A stretch of 64,000 nt of DNA from a virus, in the IMG/VR virus record IMGVR_UViG_3300042898_001439, positions 1-64,000 of that record; one strand, 5' to 3'. A program made the position numbers and the translations under genes. Shown one piece after another: positions 19,396-28,559 of the stretch. Within the stretch, counting starts at the first letter, position 1. The number at the start of each line of letters is the position of its first letter. The notes under the pieces are model-generated. The model saw only the letters and a list, made by a program, of their open reading frames with translations, was not told the DNA's origin and did not search any database.

Positions 19396-19403
19396 AAAAA
19401 AGA

Positions 19404-19435
19404 AGAGAGGGTTAATAGCCCTCTCTTTTTATTTT
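19404..19435. terminator. Bidirectional rho-independent terminator
   Basis: AGAGAGGG (19404-19411) pairs with CCCTCTCT (19419-19426). TTTTATTTT follows on the + strand, and TCTTTTTTCC follows on the - strand. It insulates the convergent replication operon and PhoH gene. Confidence 0.88.
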
Positions 19436-20455: not shown

Positions 20456-21070
20456 TTACTTTACCCATCCGTAGTACTTCAGGGTTTTTTCTTTACGATC
20501 TTCTAGACCATGAGTACCTCCATTGATTCTCTTTGTAAGAGCAAGAATAGTGTCGTTATTTACACCTTTATCACAGATATCCCACAACTTATTACGATCA
20601 AAGAAGAAGATAGCAGATTCAAATGCATACTCAGTAGCAACCAGATCAGGATTAGTCATGATTTCTGGCTTCTTCAAGTATTCAGCAAATGCTTGGTAGT
20701 TAGATTTACCAGTCAATTGCAGAGCACCACGTCCACGAAACTTATATCCATCACCAGATGCTTCATCACCATTACCCATACGAGATGCATACACACGGTT
20801 TGCAATCTTTTCTGGCTTACGCTCATACTGAGCAGCTAGAGCTTCTGTAGGGAAGTACTTTTTAAAAATACCAAGCAATCCTTTAGCACTATAGTTCAAG
20901 TTCTCAGAGAAAGCTTTAAACCCTCCGGTCTCGTGAGCTGTTTGTGCAAAGAAATGTGCAGCACGTTCAGGTGTAAACTTGTAGTAAGTCATTCCTGCTT
21001 TTAGAGTGCCCGGACCAAATGCTCCATCCGCCGTAACACCCGCTTTGGTTTGTAAACTCTTTAGACTCAT
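20456..21070 (-). CDS. Endolysin, GH19 chitinase/lysozyme-like
   Basis: This is a lytic peptidoglycan hydrolase of 204 residues. A short N-terminal peptidoglycan-binding-like stretch (LKSLQTKAGVTADGAFGPGTL) precedes the glycoside hydrolase 19 core. AAHFFAQTAHETGGFKAF carries the catalytic Glu47, and SENLNYS carries the second Glu56. GDGYKFRGRGALQLTGKSNY is the diagnostic GH19 substrate-binding segment. There is no signal peptide, so release needs the holin encoded just upstream with a four-base overlap (ATGA). Confidence 0.92.
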   Translation of the reverse strand: MSLKSLQTKAGVTADGAFGPGTLKAGMTYYKFTPERAAHFFAQTAHETGGFKAFSENLNYSAKGLLGIFKKYFPTEALAAQYERKPEKIANRVYASRMGNGDEASGDGYKFRGRGALQLTGKSNYQAFAEYLKKPEIMTNPDLVATEYAFESAIFFFDRNKLWDICDKGVNNDTILALTKRINGGTHGLEDRKEKTLKYYGWVK

Positions 21071-21330
21071 TCTTCTTCTTTTTTAGCACCGAAAATCTTT
21101 CCAGCTTCAGCAATACCGAAAGCTCCCAGTGTGATTATTACAAACGAATTAAAAATTGTATCAGAAATAATGAGCTCATTGCCCATAATACCTGTTACCA
21201 CATCGGCAATAGCTGTAATACTCATTACAGTGAATGACAAGAAACCAACAATAGTCTTCTCGTTCCACTCATTATTGTCCTTAAAAATATCCCAAAAAGC
21301 CATAAACTTATTTTTTAATTGATTAAACAT
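21067..21330 (-). CDS. Holin
   Basis: The 87-residue membrane protein has two hydrophobic segments (VGFLSFTVMSITAIADVV and ISDTIFNSFVIITLGAFGIAE), a charged N terminus and a Lys/Glu tail (GAKKEEE). Two-helix proteins like this, overlapping the endolysin gene by ATGA, are typical holins of Bacteroidota phages. It has its own promoter-like motif at 21354-21373, so lysis can be expressed apart from the upstream surface operon. Confidence 0.78.
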   Translation of the reverse strand: MFNQLKNKFMAFWDIFKDNNEWNEKTIVGFLSFTVMSITAIADVVTGIMGNELIISDTIFNSFVIITLGAFGIAEAGKIFGAKKEEE

Positions 21331-21374: not shown

Positions 21375-21797
21375 TTAGTCCAGAGCATCAACTATTGCCT
21401 TCTTAACAGCAACAGAAAATTCTGTTCTTTCAAACTCAAGATTCTCATCCTGAAGCTGCATAAGGGTTGCAGCAACATTTGTATTAGCTTTTCCTACTCC
21501 GTGATAAACCTTAGAGCCGATTGCAATGTCTACTTCTACAATGGTTTTCTTTTGCTTGAATTCAAACGGACCTAGACGTATACCTTGAGTTGGAGCTTTG
21601 ATGTCGGTGATTGTCACATATACCGGACTTGCACCCTCTGAAGACTGATCACACAAGGGATTTCCTTGTTGTAGAAGAATGTCTTCAGTCATTTGCTTGA
21701 GACCAAAAGTGAACTTCTGGTTATCGATACCAGCTAGATTTGCATTAGATGTCACAGTAGCAACATAAAAGCACATTGTAATAATTGAATTGATCAT
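21375..21797 (-). CDS. Small exported protein, last gene of the surface operon (140 aa)
   Basis: The protein has a weak N-terminal hydrophobic stretch (IITMCFYVATVTSNANLA) that could be a signal peptide. It continues FTFGLKQMTEDILLQ, PVYVTITDIKAPTQGIR and TIVEVDIAIGSKVYHGVGKA, then a helical end (FSVAVKKAIVDALD). The strand-rich centre and final helix loosely recall the C-terminal half of CsgG-like or other small periplasmic assembly proteins. The resemblance is too weak to name it. It overlaps the 393-residue protein gene by ATGA. Confidence 0.6.
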   Translation of the reverse strand: MINSIITMCFYVATVTSNANLAGIDNQKFTFGLKQMTEDILLQQGNPLCDQSSEGASPVYVTITDIKAPTQGIRLGPFEFKQKKTIVEVDIAIGSKVYHGVGKANTNVAATLMQLQDENLEFERTEFSVAVKKAIVDALD

Positions 21798-22975
21798 TGG
21801 AGTTTACCTGAGTTAATTGATTGAGTTGCATTATGTATTCCTGTACCCATTATGTAGAATTGATTTTGATTTTCAATCGTACGTGTTTGGGCGGGAGAAT
21901 ATGTATTATAATAATTAGCGTTAGGATTAGCTTCAATAGTAATTTTTTCTGCCTGAGTGAAGATGTACTTGTTATGTAGTGCATTTGTTTTTAAAAGCGT
22001 ATAACAAAAGTTTATATCCTCCCAATCAAAAGTTGAGGAGTTATTACAGTCACAAGTGTAAAAGTCCCAGTCCTGTAACGGACCTAAATTACCTTTTATA
22101 AACATCATGTAAATAAGACTGAAGTCAGTAATAGGGTGAAACTTCTGAGAGGTGTTGATTGTAACCTTGTACTGCTTATTGGTAGGATTAGAAACTACTA
22201 CCTGACCAGTTGCGTTTGTGTTCTGAGTTGATATTGTAGACCAGCTTCCTTGATTTGAAGAGGATGTAAATCTAAAAGCAGTACCGGCTGCATAACTTGT
22301 AGTCGTGATATAATTCACACCCAGCCATGCAGCACCGCTTGAAATGCCCATCTGCTCTTGATTAGAACCATCAGCAGTAAATGCGCGCATCACTACGTAA
22401 AAGACTGTAGGTTGAGTTTTTACAAAGTATAGATCCCATATCACATTTACTCCTGATTGACTGTACTGGCAGTTCCCCTCATACCTAACCCTGAACACGT
22501 CCCCCCAAGTTCCATCAGTATAGGTTTCAGTTGAAACCTTAGACATATTGTTGTCTGAGGATCCGTTATCAACCGAGGTTATGTGAATAGTAGGAACGTT
22601 TGGGTTGGTTGCATTACCCTGGTAGCCTGAACTGCTTGTAGTTCCAAATCCAAACCAAGAGTTAGAATTAACGTGACCTTGTGTATACGTTGTTGTACCT
22701 ATAGTAGGAGTGAAGCCGGATGGAAATGTTATAGCAGCAGAAGCTTCATCCGCATTAGCACTACTAAAAATTATAGTACTCCCGGCTCCCCTATTAGCTG
22801 GTATATAAGCTGTCTGAGATTGAACGGTGCCACTTAAACCTCCTGCAGTGTAATGCTCAACCGTAATAGGTATACCACTAACGTCCTGAGTTCCAATTGG
22901 AGTCAGGGTGATTGTCTGCCCTATCAGAGATAGAGGTAGAATTAACAGGAGTATTATGTTTAATTTAGAAATCAT
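21794..22975 (-). CDS. Secreted protein of unknown function (393 aa), surface operon
   Basis: A clear signal peptide (KLNIILLLILPLSLIGQT) leads into a Thr/Ser/Asn-rich, beta-rich protein with many aromatic residues. Segments include FPSGFTPTIGTTTYTQGHVN and WDLYFVKTQPTVFYVVMRAF. There is one Cys pair (YTCDCNNSSTFDW). The look is that of an extracellular beta-sandwich or adhesin-like protein. No family is recognised and no T9SS C-terminal domain is visible. It overlaps both neighbours, so it belongs to the seven-gene operon. Confidence 0.65.
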   Translation of the reverse strand: MISKLNIILLLILPLSLIGQTITLTPIGTQDVSGIPITVEHYTAGGLSGTVQSQTAYIPANRGAGSTIIFSSANADEASAAITFPSGFTPTIGTTTYTQGHVNSNSWFGFGTTSSSGYQGNATNPNVPTIHITSVDNGSSDNNMSKVSTETYTDGTWGDVFRVRYEGNCQYSQSGVNVIWDLYFVKTQPTVFYVVMRAFTADGSNQEQMGISSGAAWLGVNYITTTSYAAGTAFRFTSSSNQGSWSTISTQNTNATGQVVVSNPTNKQYKVTINTSQKFHPITDFSLIYMMFIKGNLGPLQDWDFYTCDCNNSSTFDWEDINFCYTLLKTNALHNKYIFTQAEKITIEANPNANYYNTYSPAQTRTIENQNQFYIMGTGIHNATQSINSGKLQ

Positions 22976-23789
22976 AGTTACATCCTATTGAAAGTATATA
23001 GGGAGTTGCCTTACGAAACCCAATAGTTTTGTCTGAAGGAGAGTATGTGTAGCAGCTTCTAAGTTTACTACCAAACATAAATTTCTCAGTTAATTTATAT
23101 TTTAATGAAGCTCCGTAGTATGCATTAAGATTAAAATCATCCCAGTACCAGATGTCTAGTGCACCCTCAAAGTCGTCTAAATTAAAATAGTGAGTTCTTA
23201 CAGACGATAGTAAGAATAATTCGGGTCCTAATACAAATCTCTTATATTCAAATTCTTTCATTGCTATGAGCATCCCACTGTATTTTGTATAGGATGCCGC
23301 AGGATAAAATTGCTCAAATAAATAAAAATCATCGTGAGTGTTATCTCTAATAAATAAGGTATATCCAAGTTTGGTATTATTCTTAAACTCGTAAATTTGA
23401 TTAAAATAAGGGCTTACCACTACAGCCGAATGGTCAGCAAACGCTGATACTGTTACTCCGTATGTGGTTGTTCTATCTATATTCTTAAGAGTCTTAGCTC
23501 TAGTATGACTGTATCCTACTTTTGTGTACTTAAAAAAAGGAGTATTGGATGCAAATATTCCATTTGTTACATTCTCTTTACCCCATTCATAGGTTAGGTT
23601 GTAACTCAATATCCTCATATCACCTAGGTACCCAACTGATACGTTAGAGCTACTCATAACATCATTATCAAAATCAATATACTGTATTGAAGTAACATCA
23701 GATATAGTCTGAGTATTCCCAGAAGTTTGAGAATACGCCTGTATTGATACCGACAGTATAAAAATCAAGCTTAAAATAAACTTTCTCAT
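22965..23789 (-). CDS. Predicted outer-membrane beta-barrel protein (274 aa)
   Basis: A signal peptide (KFILSLIFILSVSIQAYSQ) is followed by alternating hydrophobic/polar strands such as VSVGYLGDMRILSYNLTYEW, TTYGVTVSAFADHSAVVV and KFMFGSKLRSCYTYS. The protein ends ILSIGCNYDF, a terminal aromatic typical of barrel proteins inserted by BamA. The size suits a 10-14 strand barrel. It sits between the linker-barrel protein and the 393-residue secreted protein. The partner or ligand is unknown. Confidence 0.7.
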   Translation of the reverse strand: MRKFILSLIFILSVSIQAYSQTSGNTQTISDVTSIQYIDFDNDVMSSSNVSVGYLGDMRILSYNLTYEWGKENVTNGIFASNTPFFKYTKVGYSHTRAKTLKNIDRTTTYGVTVSAFADHSAVVVSPYFNQIYEFKNNTKLGYTLFIRDNTHDDFYLFEQFYPAASYTKYSGMLIAMKEFEYKRFVLGPELFLLSSVRTHYFNLDDFEGALDIWYWDDFNLNAYYGASLKYKLTEKFMFGSKLRSCYTYSPSDKTIGFRKATPYILSIGCNYDF

Positions 23790-25240
23790 AGTAACATCTT
23801 TGTTCCGGTTGATAACTGAAAGTTAAGAATATCTGCGTTGTATTGGTATGCTCCTGAGAATGAGATACTCCACTTAAACTTATCGGTAAGTTTAAAGTCA
23901 ACGCTTGCTAGGGGTACAATAAGAAACCCGGATTTGTACCATTGTCCTTCGTAGTAAAAGATATAAGGTGAGTATACACCTAGAGCCATTATGTTAGCAG
24001 ATAAAGTCTTACCCCCTTTAAAACTAGTGAATGTTCCTCCTACTACAGATAAGTTTTGAAACTCAGATTTACCTATCTGACCTAGAGTAAAATTAGCTCC
24101 GCCCATAAAAGTAAACTTCCAAAGTTTTTGTGCACTTAGCAGAGTTACTGTGTTAAACCAGTCAGATTTAAAATCAGTCATAAAAGAATTGGAACCCACC
24201 GCCATGAAATCTTTTTTCTTATAGGACCCATACAAAGTGAGATTGCTTATATTTTCTCCTGTAGTATAGTTTAGGTTGACACCTTTAATAAAGTTTTGCT
24301 TGGTGTTGACGTGAGTAACTGACGTATTGAAACGGAAGTTATCATTACGCTTACTGATGTCGTTACCATTACGGATAACAACCATGTCCCCTGAACCAAT
24401 CAGAGAACCCCTACCAATCTTTTCTTGCTTTTGTTTTGGTTTATTACCTCCACCACCTCCACCACCGGAGTCTCCAGAACTTTCTGATTCTCCACCCGAT
24501 GCTGTAGTAGTATTTTCACCGGTACCAGACCCACCGGATTCAGATGTAGAGCCACCTTGTGCAGTACCACCACTTCCGGTGCTACCGCCACCTTCTACTC
24601 CTCCTTGTGGTTGTCCTCCACCGGAACCACCAGACCCTGAGTTTCCTCCAGAACTGCCACCAGAAGAAGAACCACCAGATCCAGAGCCACCAGAGCCTGA
24701 AGAACCTGAAGAACCGCCTGTTGGAGGTTTGGTTCCAGATCCGCTTGAACTGCCAGTATTGCCACCACCGCTAGTAGCACCATTTTCACCAGTATTATCA
24801 CCTGAGTTTTCACCACCTGAACCGCCTGTATTACCTGTTGATATTGAACCTGAACTTACGCTACCCCCTCCGAGACTGCCCGCGATGGAAGTGCTAATAG
24901 AGACAATACCGCTAACACTATTTGCTGTGTTTGTACCGATGTTTGCGTTACTATTATTAGCGTTAGAAGAACCATTACCTGCACAAGGGTTGCTACCTGG
25001 AGGAAACTGAGTATTAATTTGAGCAATCCAATTTTCATAAGCTCCTGATTGAAGTTGAGCTGCTGTAAAAGTTTGGTATTGCCCAGCATAAAACATCACC
25101 ACTGTCCCAGATGTCTGAGACAGGATGACTGACTGTAGCACTCCCGTACAAGGATCCGTATAATTGTAAGTAAATGTTTGTGCTTGCAACCCTATACATC
25201 CCAGCAGAAATAATAATAATATTTTGAATTTACCATTCAT
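23786..25240 (-). CDS. Surface protein: signal peptide, N-domain, Gly/Ser linker, C-terminal beta-barrel
   Basis: After a signal peptide (KFKILLLFLLGCIGLQAQ), residues about 20-85 form a small domain with two Cys (YTDPCTGVLQ and SNPCAGNG). A low-complexity Gly/Ser/Thr/Asn tract of roughly 180 residues follows (85-270). The last 210 residues form a barrel-like domain with strands such as NLTLYGSYKKKDFMAVGSN and FKWSISFSGAYQYNADIL. The build resembles a passenger on a long flexible arm anchored to a barrel. The repetitive DNA (24440-24900) is GGW/TCC-rich. It overlaps both neighbours. Confidence 0.7.
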   Translation of the reverse strand: MNGKFKILLLFLLGCIGLQAQTFTYNYTDPCTGVLQSVILSQTSGTVVMFYAGQYQTFTAAQLQSGAYENWIAQINTQFPPGSNPCAGNGSSNANNSNANIGTNTANSVSGIVSISTSIAGSLGGGSVSSGSISTGNTGGSGGENSGDNTGENGATSGGGNTGSSSGSGTKPPTGGSSGSSGSGGSGSGGSSSGGSSGGNSGSGGSGGGQPQGGVEGGGSTGSGGTAQGGSTSESGGSGTGENTTTASGGESESSGDSGGGGGGGNKPKQKQEKIGRGSLIGSGDMVVIRNGNDISKRNDNFRFNTSVTHVNTKQNFIKGVNLNYTTGENISNLTLYGSYKKKDFMAVGSNSFMTDFKSDWFNTVTLLSAQKLWKFTFMGGANFTLGQIGKSEFQNLSVVGGTFTSFKGGKTLSANIMALGVYSPYIFYYEGQWYKSGFLIVPLASVDFKLTDKFKWSISFSGAYQYNADILNFQLSTGTKMLL

Positions 25241-25976
25241 ATTGGTCCATGCGTTTCATAAGGTTTACCGTGGCAACCTCTAACGCACGTTGTGTAGACA
25301 CACCCACCGTTGACTGATCAAAGCCCATAGTGGGATTCTTAAAGAAGCCCTCACCAACCTGAGTAGAAGTTCCTTGACCAGATGCAACAATATATTGAGA
25401 GTTATCTACATTAACCATCTTAATTTGAATACCGATGATGGTAGTATTAGTTTTCTGAAGTTTTCCTTTATCATAAGTTTCTCCATAAGACGTAGAAAAT
25501 TCATAGATCTCAGCGTAGACAATGTACTTAGGTAGAACTACCGAGCCTACGTTAAGCTTGGTTCTACCATCACCCATGTCATTGAGATCTTTCTCCCATA
25601 CATCAAGCATTTGATTAACGATAGCTTCTTTTTCTTCCGCATAGAGAAATCTCTGAGTTACCTCAAAGTTCTCTATAATACGGTTAGATACACCCATACC
25701 AACTCTTTTGTCTCTAAGCTCCGGAAACATCTCCCAGAGTTCTTTATTAACGTTAAGAGTGGCTATTTGAATTACTTTTTTCTCACCAGTGAATACAGGA
25801 AATGTATTTAGAGGTTGAGCTTTTTCAAATTCAGCTTGGTATTGTGTAGTAGCAATAGAAGAAGAGCAAGATGTAGCTAAACCTCCTATAGTGAGAAGGC
25901 CAACCGTGATAATCACAATTCCAAGAATACTTGCAGCTATTGCAATGTATTCTTCTTTTTTAGTTTGATGTTCCAT
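25230..25976 (-). CDS. CsgG-like outer-membrane lipoprotein (curli secretion pore family)
   Basis: The 248-residue protein has an N-terminal hydrophobic segment ending GGLATSCSSS, a plausible lipobox with Cys. The body follows the CsgG/FlgT pattern. VIQIATLNVNKELWEMFPEL is followed by VGMGVSNRIIENFEVTQRF, where the N-terminal helix binds DNA-independent partners in the family. Then come ADYxV-type YIVYAEIYEFSTSY, IGIQIKMVNVDNSQYIVASG and a final helical ALEVATVNLMKRM. CsgG forms a nine-fold pore that exports curli subunits. ATG 25976 is chosen over 26009 because it gives a normal signal-anchor. CsgE, CsgF and curlin genes are not evident. Confidence 0.72.
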   Translation of the reverse strand: MEHQTKKEEYIAIAASILGIVIITVGLLTIGGLATSCSSSIATTQYQAEFEKAQPLNTFPVFTGEKKVIQIATLNVNKELWEMFPELRDKRVGMGVSNRIIENFEVTQRFLYAEEKEAIVNQMLDVWEKDLNDMGDGRTKLNVGSVVLPKYIVYAEIYEFSTSYGETYDKGKLQKTNTTIIGIQIKMVNVDNSQYIVASGQGTSTQVGEGFFKNPTMGFDQSTVGVSTQRALEVATVNLMKRMDQYEW

Positions 25977-26352
25977 CTTTAGCTGCTTTATCTTTTTTAA
26001 GTCTTGCAATACGCTCAGCAGTAGTTTCTTTCTTTTCTTCTACTGGTGCAGCAGGTTGTGCAGCAGGTACTTCACGTACAGTTTCTTTAATTACTGTAGT
26101 ATGTGACGATGCAGCTTGTTGTTGCTCAGGAACATTGATAGTAATAGCAGGACCAGATACGTTAACGCTCTGATTGTTGGACTGCTCTACAGGAGCTACT
26201 TGTTCAGTAGCGGCTCCTCCCTCTTCTTCTATACCTAGAATGGTATTGATCTGAGTAGTAGCCCAGATACCTACTCCGGTAACGGCTGTTCCTAGTACTC
26301 CTAGAATTGTTTTCTTTAAACCGGACATTCCTCCTTCTTGATCTTCGCTCAT
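25960..26352 (-). CDS. Small membrane protein with Pro/Ala/Gln-rich tail, surface operon
   Basis: The 130-residue protein starts with a Gly-rich segment and a single hydrophobic stretch (KTILGVLGTAVTGVGIWATTQI). It continues as a disordered Gln/Asn/Pro/Ala-rich region (NQSVNVSGPAITINVPEQQQ) and ends in a basic, helical tail. It overlaps the CsgG-like gene by 17 bases. It may link the inner membrane to the CsgG-like pore or to exported cargo. This is inferred only from context. Confidence 0.6.
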   Translation of the reverse strand: MSEDQEGGMSGLKKTILGVLGTAVTGVGIWATTQINTILGIEEEGGAATEQVAPVEQSNNQSVNVSGPAITINVPEQQQAASSHTTVIKETVREVPAAQPAAPVEEKKETTAERIARLKKDKAAKDGTSN

Positions 26353-26358
26353 GGTTTC

Positions 26359-28287
26359 TTAGTATTTAATAATTTTGTAAAACTTCTCTCTATCGTTAGT
26401 TGTCAGCTTTATGATGTAAATACCATTAGGAAGATCACCGAACCAAATACCTTGAGTTTGGAAACCTCTTTCAGTAATTTTACTAGAAACTGACTTAACA
26501 ATCTGACCTTGAGAGTTAAGAACCAGACCGCTAAAGTTTGTAAAGTCTTCAATGTAAAAGTCTACAACTAACCAGTGGTTGGTAAGATCAGTTACAGGAT
26601 TAGGATAAGTAATAAATCCAGTAAGAAGAGCAAGAGTCCGCTCATCCATTTCTGCTCTACCGTTAATTACAGAGCCGTCATTAGGGGAAGGACGGATAGA
26701 CATATCGTAAGCATTCTCATCACCTGCAGCTTTATTAAAGATTGCAAGAGGAGAAGTTCTCCATCCAAGAATAGACTTAACTGCAAATCTGAAAGTAAAT
26801 ACTTGAGATGGCCCTTGAAGAAGAGCAGGATTCATCTTATCTTCGTGACCAGCCCAGAATACACCACCATCTTTAAACGTCATAAATGATGTCCACTTTG
26901 AAGCAGAATCTCCCATATTCAGAGACACAAACTCAAACACCGCAGTATCATACTGGATCCCCATCTGCAGAGCTCCAACCTTATTACCAAACGTGTACAC
27001 TGTCACAGGTACATCAATGTAGTTATCAGTTGTTACAATAAGTTTAGGAATTCTAAACTCAATTGAGTCTGGCTTATTAGAGAGGTATACTGCCGGATCA
27101 AGAATGTAATCTGTACCAGATCCAGGGTTTACCATCTTAGCAAGAATAGTTGCAGGGTTGTTGTATCCTGAAGTTGTGGCATCACCTACTACATAGATGT
27201 ACGGTCTAAGACTATCCATACTATTAACAATAGTATCAATTGAATATACTCTAGGTACGTTTGTCCAGTTAGGAGCAGCTACGGCGGCATTTGCAGTTGC
27301 CCACTCAGAAGGCCAAAGAACTGAAACGTTGTTTACTCCCGTAAAGAGTTGATCCCAACCTGTCTGACCTAGAGCAAGTCTGTTAAATACAGCAAATGCA
27401 TCAGACACTGTTACAGACTGGCTCTCGTTAATATCACCCTCGTAGTACTCAATACCACCTAAAGTATCTTGAGAAGATACATGGTTAGCCAATTTGTAAG
27501 CATCTACAATAGTTAGAGCCCCGCCATCAGACATAGAGTCTGTTTGTGCAGAGATCTTCATATGCCAGTAGTTTGTATCAAGCGGATGAGTAAACTCTAC
27601 TAAACCTGTAGCATTAGTTGAGTCAGTAGTAATTGATTGCCAAGTAGCAAGAGGTGTTGATTTAAGTCTTTTCTTAGCAGAAAACCAAACACCTTGAGCA
27701 GGTGAACTATCAGCGTTTCTAACCTTTACAGGAAACGTCATCGGAGTCATTTGGAAAGCACCACCGTAGCTGTAGAGCTCAAGGTTTACATCAGTACCGT
27801 TACCAATTGTTGCCAGATTAGTGTAATTACTAGATCCTGAAATTGCCATAGAGGTAGCTACACCATTATATGCACCAGAATGAAAAAGACGAAGCTTAAA
27901 CATAGCTCCGTCTGCCCAGTCAAAGTTTGGCGTAGAACCAGTATATGACGCTACTACGTTAATGTATCCAGCATTTGTAAAATAAGAACCGTACTTATCG
28001 GCGATGGGTTGTGCTGTTGGTCCCCAAAACATGACAGCGTTTGAAAACTTAGCATTGTCATAGAAGAGTCGGAACTGTACAGCCTTTACAGAAGTAGCGG
28101 TAGGGTTGGCAAAGTGAACGTATACATCTGTGTACGTTGCCGGATAGTTGTCCAGTGTAAATAGAGTATCTACAAGGATATAAGGGTTGTTACTTGCGGG
28201 TGCTACAAGTATTTCATTAGCACCGTTTTGAGCAAGAAGACTTAAAGAAATAAGAGAAGTTGAAAGACTCCACCAGAACTTTTTCAT
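26359..28287 (-). CDS. T9SS-sorted extracellular protein with cohesin- and dockerin-like domains
   Basis: A signal peptide (KKFWWSLSTSLISLSLLAQ) precedes a beta-rich domain (residues about 25-180) and a second one near 400-540, both of cohesin-like layout. Residues about 249-307 hold two Asp/Asn-rich helical repeats (MSDGGALTIVDAYKLANHV and GDINESQSVTVSDAFAVFNR), the dockerin pattern. The last 85 residues form a type A T9SS sorting domain: TYPNPVTD...NFSGLVLNSQGQIV...GIWFGDLPNGIYIIKL...KFYKIIKY. Such proteins are exported by the host type IX machinery and anchored on the surface. ATG 28287 is chosen over an upstream TTG. Confidence 0.82.
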   Translation of the reverse strand: MKKFWWSLSTSLISLSLLAQNGANEILVAPASNNPYILVDTLFTLDNYPATYTDVYVHFANPTATSVKAVQFRLFYDNAKFSNAVMFWGPTAQPIADKYGSYFTNAGYINVVASYTGSTPNFDWADGAMFKLRLFHSGAYNGVATSMAISGSSNYTNLATIGNGTDVNLELYSYGGAFQMTPMTFPVKVRNADSSPAQGVWFSAKKRLKSTPLATWQSITTDSTNATGLVEFTHPLDTNYWHMKISAQTDSMSDGGALTIVDAYKLANHVSSQDTLGGIEYYEGDINESQSVTVSDAFAVFNRLALGQTGWDQLFTGVNNVSVLWPSEWATANAAVAAPNWTNVPRVYSIDTIVNSMDSLRPYIYVVGDATTSGYNNPATILAKMVNPGSGTDYILDPAVYLSNKPDSIEFRIPKLIVTTDNYIDVPVTVYTFGNKVGALQMGIQYDTAVFEFVSLNMGDSASKWTSFMTFKDGGVFWAGHEDKMNPALLQGPSQVFTFRFAVKSILGWRTSPLAIFNKAAGDENAYDMSIRPSPNDGSVINGRAEMDERTLALLTGFITYPNPVTDLTNHWLVVDFYIEDFTNFSGLVLNSQGQIVKSVSSKITERGFQTQGIWFGDLPNGIYIIKLTTNDREKFYKIIKY

Positions 28288-28391: not shown

Positions 28392-28559
28392 ATGACACAG
28401 TTAAGTTTTCTTTTTTTACCTAAAAACCAATTATTGGTAGGCATCAACCACAGTGTTGAAGAAGGAGAAACAAGCGTAAACACATCGTTTCGTGTTCACA
28501 CTTTACAACTAGGGCTCTTTTTCTTTATTCTACAGCTAGTTAGAATTAAAGAGTCCTAA
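28392..28559 (+). CDS. Small + strand protein between - strand operons (55 aa)
   Basis: ATG 28392 to TAA 28557-28559 encodes 55 residues: LSFLFLPKNQLLVGINHSVE followed by a Thr/Ser stretch and a hydrophobic end (HTLQLGLFFFILQLVRIKES). The stop is the base before the stop of the giant - strand gene at 28560. The exact convergent fit and balanced composition suggest a real gene. No family is known to me, and the hydrophobic end suggests membrane association. Confidence 0.5.
   Translation: MTQLSFLFLPKNQLLVGINHSVEEGETSVNTSFRVHTLQLGLFFFILQLVRIKES

Follow-up and report, generated by a model that had tools for sequence, protein, structure and literature searches.

Why do phages carry envelope cassettes that include a CsgG-fold protein? 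We took up this question for seven minus-strand open reading frames (ORFs), P0001 to P0007, at positions 21375-28287 of a 64,000-nucleotide stretch (hereafter the window), which comes from the IMG/VR virus record IMGVR_UViG_3300042898_001439, 78,725 bases long; all window coordinates below refer to features on the minus strand. A virion protein of 1567 aa has matches in Cellulophaga phages phi4:1 and phi17:2 and in csAssE, which is consistent with a crAss-like phage. A preliminary description of this DNA had proposed an envelope cassette with emphasis on a pore and barrels. We retain the cassette, as an exported, apparently phage-borne set with a CsgG-fold lipoprotein and a protein sorted by the type IX secretion system (T9SS), but not that emphasis. 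The earlier account noticed neither the Cohesin domain of P0007 nor its dockerin-like module, overlooked that the P0002 family combines lectins with a dockerin-like part, and did not see that the whole cassette is conserved outside crAss-like phages. Among all functional signals, the best supported is a cohesin scaffold (P0007) together with swappable glycan-binding proteins that have a common dockerin-like module (P0002). We suggest that the cassette encodes a surface display of glycan-binding proteins, acting through cohesin-dockerin pairing and the T9SS in Bacteroidota hosts, a proposal that in our judgment has about an even chance of being correct.

Results

P0007 (26359..28287, 642 aa from ATG 28287) is predicted to be an exported scaffold with a Cohesin domain (26770..27030), a dockerin-like module (27163..27696) and a T9SS C-terminal sorting domain (26368..26607). 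Both the Cohesin and the Por_Secre_tail match pass the Pfam cut-offs (7.3e-9 and 1.9e-6, respectively), and they are accompanied by PDB matches to the cellulosome-anchoring cohesin 3ul4 (E 0.0047) and to the T9SS C-terminal domains 8glj and 8glk. The sorting domain is found in all 33 relatives of P0007 and Cohesin in 31 of them, while Dockerin_1 is recognized in six of the 33 family members. With its Sec leader and C-terminal sorting domain, P0007 has the sequence features of a T9SS substrate, as noted in the preliminary description, and this sorting domain would place its cohesin at the cell surface. A reading of the N-terminal domain as a second cohesin was left out as unproven (hhalign probability ~1%).

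The dockerin-like module of P0007, which comprises a TTR-like strand region, Ca-loop-like repeats and a tail, links the scaffold to a second protein: this central part of P0007 and the C-terminal end of P0002 family members are homologous (hhalign 99.5%, E 4.6e-23). P0002 (21794..22975, 393 aa) is likewise predicted to be exported, and consists of a variable N-terminal module followed by this dockerin-like C-terminus (21818..22288, delimited by hhalign). Among the 90 members of its family, Lectin_C occurs in 34, PA14 in 23, and LamG and GEVED in ten each; Dockerin_1 is detected in 17 of the 90 at E<=0.01 (best 0.0011). Under the Q-rule of Bacteroidetes, a Gln after the leader is expected of exported proteins (PMC5837995). 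Such a residue directly follows the leader in all 90 members of the P0002 family (Q20), and is also invariant in the families of P0007 and P0004 (35 sequences in the latter), as the rule predicts for exported proteins.

The glycan-binding part appears to move between phages. Compared with a sister phage (locus L002), most cassette genes show 88-95% identity, but P0002 only 40% and P0006 65%, whereas compared with a myovirus (L020) the identity is 96% for P0002 and 65-88% for the other cassette genes. At the DNA level, identity to L020 is 87-99% in most 150-base windows across P0003-P0002 and falls to ~65-80% on both flanks. As judged from these identities, a block containing P0003 and P0002 (21800..23600, limits approximate) has been exchanged across phage types, podovirus and myovirus included, and has a history different from that of its flanks. 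That the ligand-binding part is the one swapped fits glycan recognition rather than a pore.

The remaining proteins seem to belong to the cell envelope. P0005 (25230..25976, 248 aa from ATG 25976, a start chosen by alignment) is a predicted lipoprotein, for which a CsgG-like core had been proposed earlier. Its AlphaFold model, of moderate confidence (pLDDT 64.6), bears this out: the top 23 Foldseek matches in the PDB are all CsgG (4uv2, 6l7c and 4uv3 at the top, with E 1e-9 to 1e-8; best E 4.5e-9), so that P0005 has a CsgG fold as far as the model goes. By sequence, no Pfam CsgG match was found at E<1 and no CsgG in the PDB profile search, and hhalign against E. coli CsgG gave a probability of 1.7%. 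With 22 and 26 residues, compared with 28 and 35 in CsgG, the hairpins of P0005 are short, and they are also polar, which makes a transmembrane pore uncertain. After CsgG, its next structural neighbors are the PelC, LptE and GNA1162 lipoprotein folds, which serve bacterial envelope polymer export or have unknown roles and show no detectable sequence similarity. In the P0005 family, about ten of 103 leaders have no Cys, so that the lipobox is not universal, and some have a Q-rule-type leader instead.

P0001 (21375..21797, 140 aa) is modeled with an LptE-like fold (pLDDT 77.9; Foldseek matches to Cj1090c 7rxu and LptE, E ~4e-4). Its relatives have a leader that the window copy lacks. P0006 (25960..26352), a protein of 130 aa delimited from an alignment of relatives, has a single N-terminal hydrophobic transmembrane helix, a Pro/Ala-rich tail and no signal peptide; the earlier suggestion that all seven proteins are exported is thus not borne out. 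P0006 was also considered as an i-spanin and set aside, as its Pfam scan yielded only a weak DUF2570 match and no coiled coil is evident. P0004 (23786..25240, 484 aa), described from an alignment of 35 sequences, is made up of an exported N-terminal two-Cys domain, a Gly/Ser/Asn-rich linker and a strand-rich C-terminal domain, with no Pfam match and no meaningful PDB homologue. P0003 (22965..23789, 274 aa) is an optional exported protein. It had been proposed that two of the proteins are outer-membrane barrels. We could not confirm this for P0003 and P0004, for which neither PDB nor Pfam gave a supporting match and a strand-alternation test was uninformative (z ~0-0.5). The C-terminus of P0003 (..NYDF), with its terminal Phe, suits an outer-membrane protein, and a barrel is possible in this case. 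Single-sequence Pfam and PHROG scans of the seven proteins gave an annotation for P0007 only, and none of the seven matched curlin, CsgE or CsgF at E<1, in agreement with the earlier view that this is not a plain curli operon.

Minor variations were seen among distant relatives. In a divergent clade (L123, L125), P0004 lacks the Gly-rich linker and a different protein of 155 aa occupies the position of P0001 (L123:9589-10056, L125:9580-10050). In a more distant clade, an exported protein of ~150 aa ('..VGDGW..KVDSA..'), with no PHROG match, is conserved after P0001 (L043:13905-14366, L052:14255-14710, L025:7646-8098).

How widely is the cassette distributed? A search with P0005 yielded 62 relatives from viruses, with identities of 36-91%. 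In wider profile scans of IMG/VR, P0005 matched 528 stretches and P0007 matched 322, and the best 80 for each protein were retrieved. After deduplication by exact DNA, 109 distinct loci remained. The complete order P0007-P0006-P0005-P0004-(P0003)-P0002-P0001 is present in 80 of these, a recurrence that is not due to chance. Of the other 29 loci, 24 reach contig ends (a few with less than ~400 bases to spare) and five are genuine variants. P0003 is found in a minority of the distinct loci, and some complete cassettes have P0002 in two copies. Within one myovirus cassette, an ORF that by eye is TnpB/IS605-like lies between two P0002-type genes (L021:13907-14836).

The cassette is not a peculiarity of crassviruses. 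Its carriers include, besides the present crAss-like phage, myoviruses bearing a sheath and baseplate (L021 encodes a tail sheath and L008 a baseplate wedge), contigs as long as 373 kb and an isolate, Flavobacterium phage vB_FspM_immuto, in which the cassette genes are annotated as hypothetical or 'cohesin domain'. In immuto, P0007 is annotated as two adjoining ORFs in different frames, gp014 and gp015 (L068:11598-13422), which jointly cover 90% of P0007; the lectin and P0005 correspond to gp013 and gp017 of this phage. Among 50,697 phage records there was no match other than the immuto isolates. Because matches occur in viral records while no P0005 homologue was found in 395 other sampled Bacteroidota genomes, the cassette looks phage-borne. 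A host origin was considered and rejected on the same count; the single match on a genome contig is a 254-kb contig in a metagenome-assembled genome, probably a large phage. This contig (G008:C291; L069/L231), binned in a Bacteroidetes assembly and probably misbinned as host, carries the cassette and also a second T9SS-domain protein at 133097-133330.

Discussion

How might these parts work together? The sequences support export of P0007, P0004, P0003 and P0002 from the cytoplasm via Sec and signal peptidase I. Given its recognized domain, P0007 would then be taken by the host T9SS to the surface, where its cohesin would be displayed. P0002 relatives bear glycan-binding domains that are exchangeable, and the dockerin-like C-terminus of these proteins may dock on the P0007 cohesin; as P0007 contains the same module, it may also chain. 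More tentatively, P0005, P0001, P0004 and P0006 might together span the envelope as an anchor or conduit by which P0002 crosses the outer membrane, and the displayed lectins might shield the glycan receptors of the infected cell and of its debris from adsorption by progeny and competitors. We infer that the likely purpose is the masking of host glycans against re-adsorption and superinfection, with the cassette probably expressed late; taken by itself, this purpose is a tentative proposal with rather less than an even chance. Of the roles suggested earlier for this cassette, surface display or masking fits best. A bolder version, which we regard as unlikely, is that P0007, through its cohesin and dockerin-like module, polymerizes into T9SS-exported fibers with exchangeable P0002 lectin tips, by way of a dedicated CsgG/LptE-like envelope machine. 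The cassette would then be a virus-encoded surface organelle traded among unrelated Bacteroidota phages to mask or capture glycan-bearing surfaces.

Several points weigh against surface display and masking. The N-terminus of the window P0002 matched no lectin family in Pfam or in a further search, and both P0002 and P0007 of the window fall below Dockerin_1 detection. P0002 has no T9SS domain, which leaves its crossing of the outer membrane unexplained. The fibers of the relatives are only partly present or recovered, which limits any comparison of lectin with tail-fiber variation. Finally, late expression is suggested by the lysis-gene neighborhood alone, which could equally mean a role in lysis.

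Indeed, outer-membrane permeabilization, also proposed earlier, is kept as a rival on the grounds that lysis genes are nearby in most loci. Here the CsgG-fold P0005, with P0001, P0004 and P0006, would open or destabilize the outer membrane as infection ends, replacing spanins or serving as a lysis-timing pore. Endolysin and/or holin homologues occur in the examined flank of 67 of the 80 complete cassettes, and in 11 of the 80 a holin homologue even lies inside the cassette, between P0006 and P0005; the window cassette and its lysis genes also stand between two strong terminator-like sites, and a pinholin-like role has been proposed for the CsgG of phage Melnitz (PMC9004378). However, lysis would leave the cohesin, the dockerin-like modules, T9SS sorting and the swapped lectins unexplained, the P0005 hairpins are short and polar, and in 13 of the 80 complete cassettes the DNA examined contains no homologue of either lysis gene, so that we consider this explanation rather improbable. 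The main alternative in terms of purpose is adhesion or 'sibling capture', in which infected cells are made sticky and released progeny find neighboring hosts. This idea, proposed for the curli cassettes of pelagimyophages (PMC7029224), would suit lectin modules on a surface scaffold. It is nevertheless one to which we assign a low probability, given that the curli components are not matched here and that no clumping was seen with Melnitz (PMC9004378). Masking could be achieved just as well with this machinery, so sequence cannot separate the two.

Could the proteins simply be parts of the virion? Receptor-binding proteins typically have lectin-type domains and swapped modules, and some loci lie near structural genes, such as those for the tail sheath and baseplate in L021 and L008. 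However, the proteins would be directed out of the cell by their signal peptides, which are followed by an invariant Gln, and by a T9SS sorting domain, and the phage has separate tail-fiber genes (L070 11830-15144), which makes tail-fiber or decoration proteins a very unlikely interpretation of P0002 and P0007. We give hardly any weight to the idea that the display holds enzymes such as a secreted nuclease: an Endonuclease_NS homologue is encoded in 18 of the 109 loci (E ~1e-19) and adjoins the cassette in immuto, but it is missing from most loci and from the window.

The display of glycan-binding proteins that we favor has likenesses in several known systems, none of which it matches. The nearest are the phage-borne type VIII (curli) cassettes in pelagiphages and in methylophage Melnitz (PMC7029224, PMC9599517, PMC9004378), which are likewise multi-gene envelope sets with a CsgG-fold outer-membrane lipoprotein, a conserved order and movement between phage morphotypes. 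However, the present cassette lacks CsgF, CsgE and curlin, its P0005 is missed by CsgG sequence models, and it combines cohesin, dockerin-like, lectin and T9SS parts in phages of Bacteroidota hosts. The arrangement of a cohesin on a surface-bound scaffold, with dockerin-like modules on its prospective partners, recalls the cellulosome, but it is phage-encoded, involves lectins instead of cellulases, has a single recognized cohesin per scaffold, and its pairing is predicted. P0007 shares the Sec leader and the type-A C-terminal sorting domain (Por_Secre_tail) of Bacteroidota T9SS surface proteins, yet is virus-encoded and tied to a dedicated envelope cassette. In proposed outcome a parallel is Llp of phage T5, an early-made superinfection-exclusion lipoprotein that binds FhuA (PMC9586334); as would be the case here, an exported phage protein blocks the receptor both on infected cells and on the fragments left by lysis, but Llp is a single protein, and we claim no homology to the cassette. 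Because the parts that define curli are absent, P0005 is not recognized as CsgG by sequence and cohesin-dockerin pairing is only predicted, we assign the cassette to no known system. Its parts are known folds, but their combination is undescribed in the open-access PMC literature, where searches on cohesin/dockerin or T9SS substrates of phages turned up no account of such a cassette; what comes nearest is a note that phages of Porphyromonas gingivalis encode exported proteins conforming to the Q-rule (PMC10367356).

Should the proposal hold, lytic phages that infect environmental Bacteroidota would be using the T9SS of their host to export a cellulosome-like display, and with it would remodel the surface of the dying cell; no counterpart of this strategy is described in the literature searched. 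The presence of CsgG-fold envelope cassettes in phages would then have a concrete explanation that can be tested genetically, and hundreds of hypothetical proteins would be accounted for, in view of the numbers of P0005 and P0007 matches in IMG/VR. An isolated phage-host pair is on record, namely immuto on Flavobacterium sp. LMO8.

Genomic context

The seven ORFs are packed head to tail, most of them overlapping as had been described: by 4-11 nt at P0001/P0002, P0002/P0003, P0003/P0004 and P0004/P0005, and by 17 nt at P0005/P0006, given the P0005 start at ATG 25976. P0006 and P0007 do not overlap but are 6 nt apart. The cassette is followed by a putative holin (21067..21330; 87 aa with two hydrophobic segments), which appears to belong to the same unit and had no match in any library searched, then by a GH19-type endolysin (20456..21070; phrog_181, 1.2e-63) and PhoH. 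A consensus scan for terminators, which also gave weaker matches within genes, found two strong flanking sites, a hairpin upstream of the cassette (28472..28503) and another downstream of PhoH that would close the unit (19403..19427). These terminator-like hairpins suggest that the cassette and the lysis genes probably form one unit.

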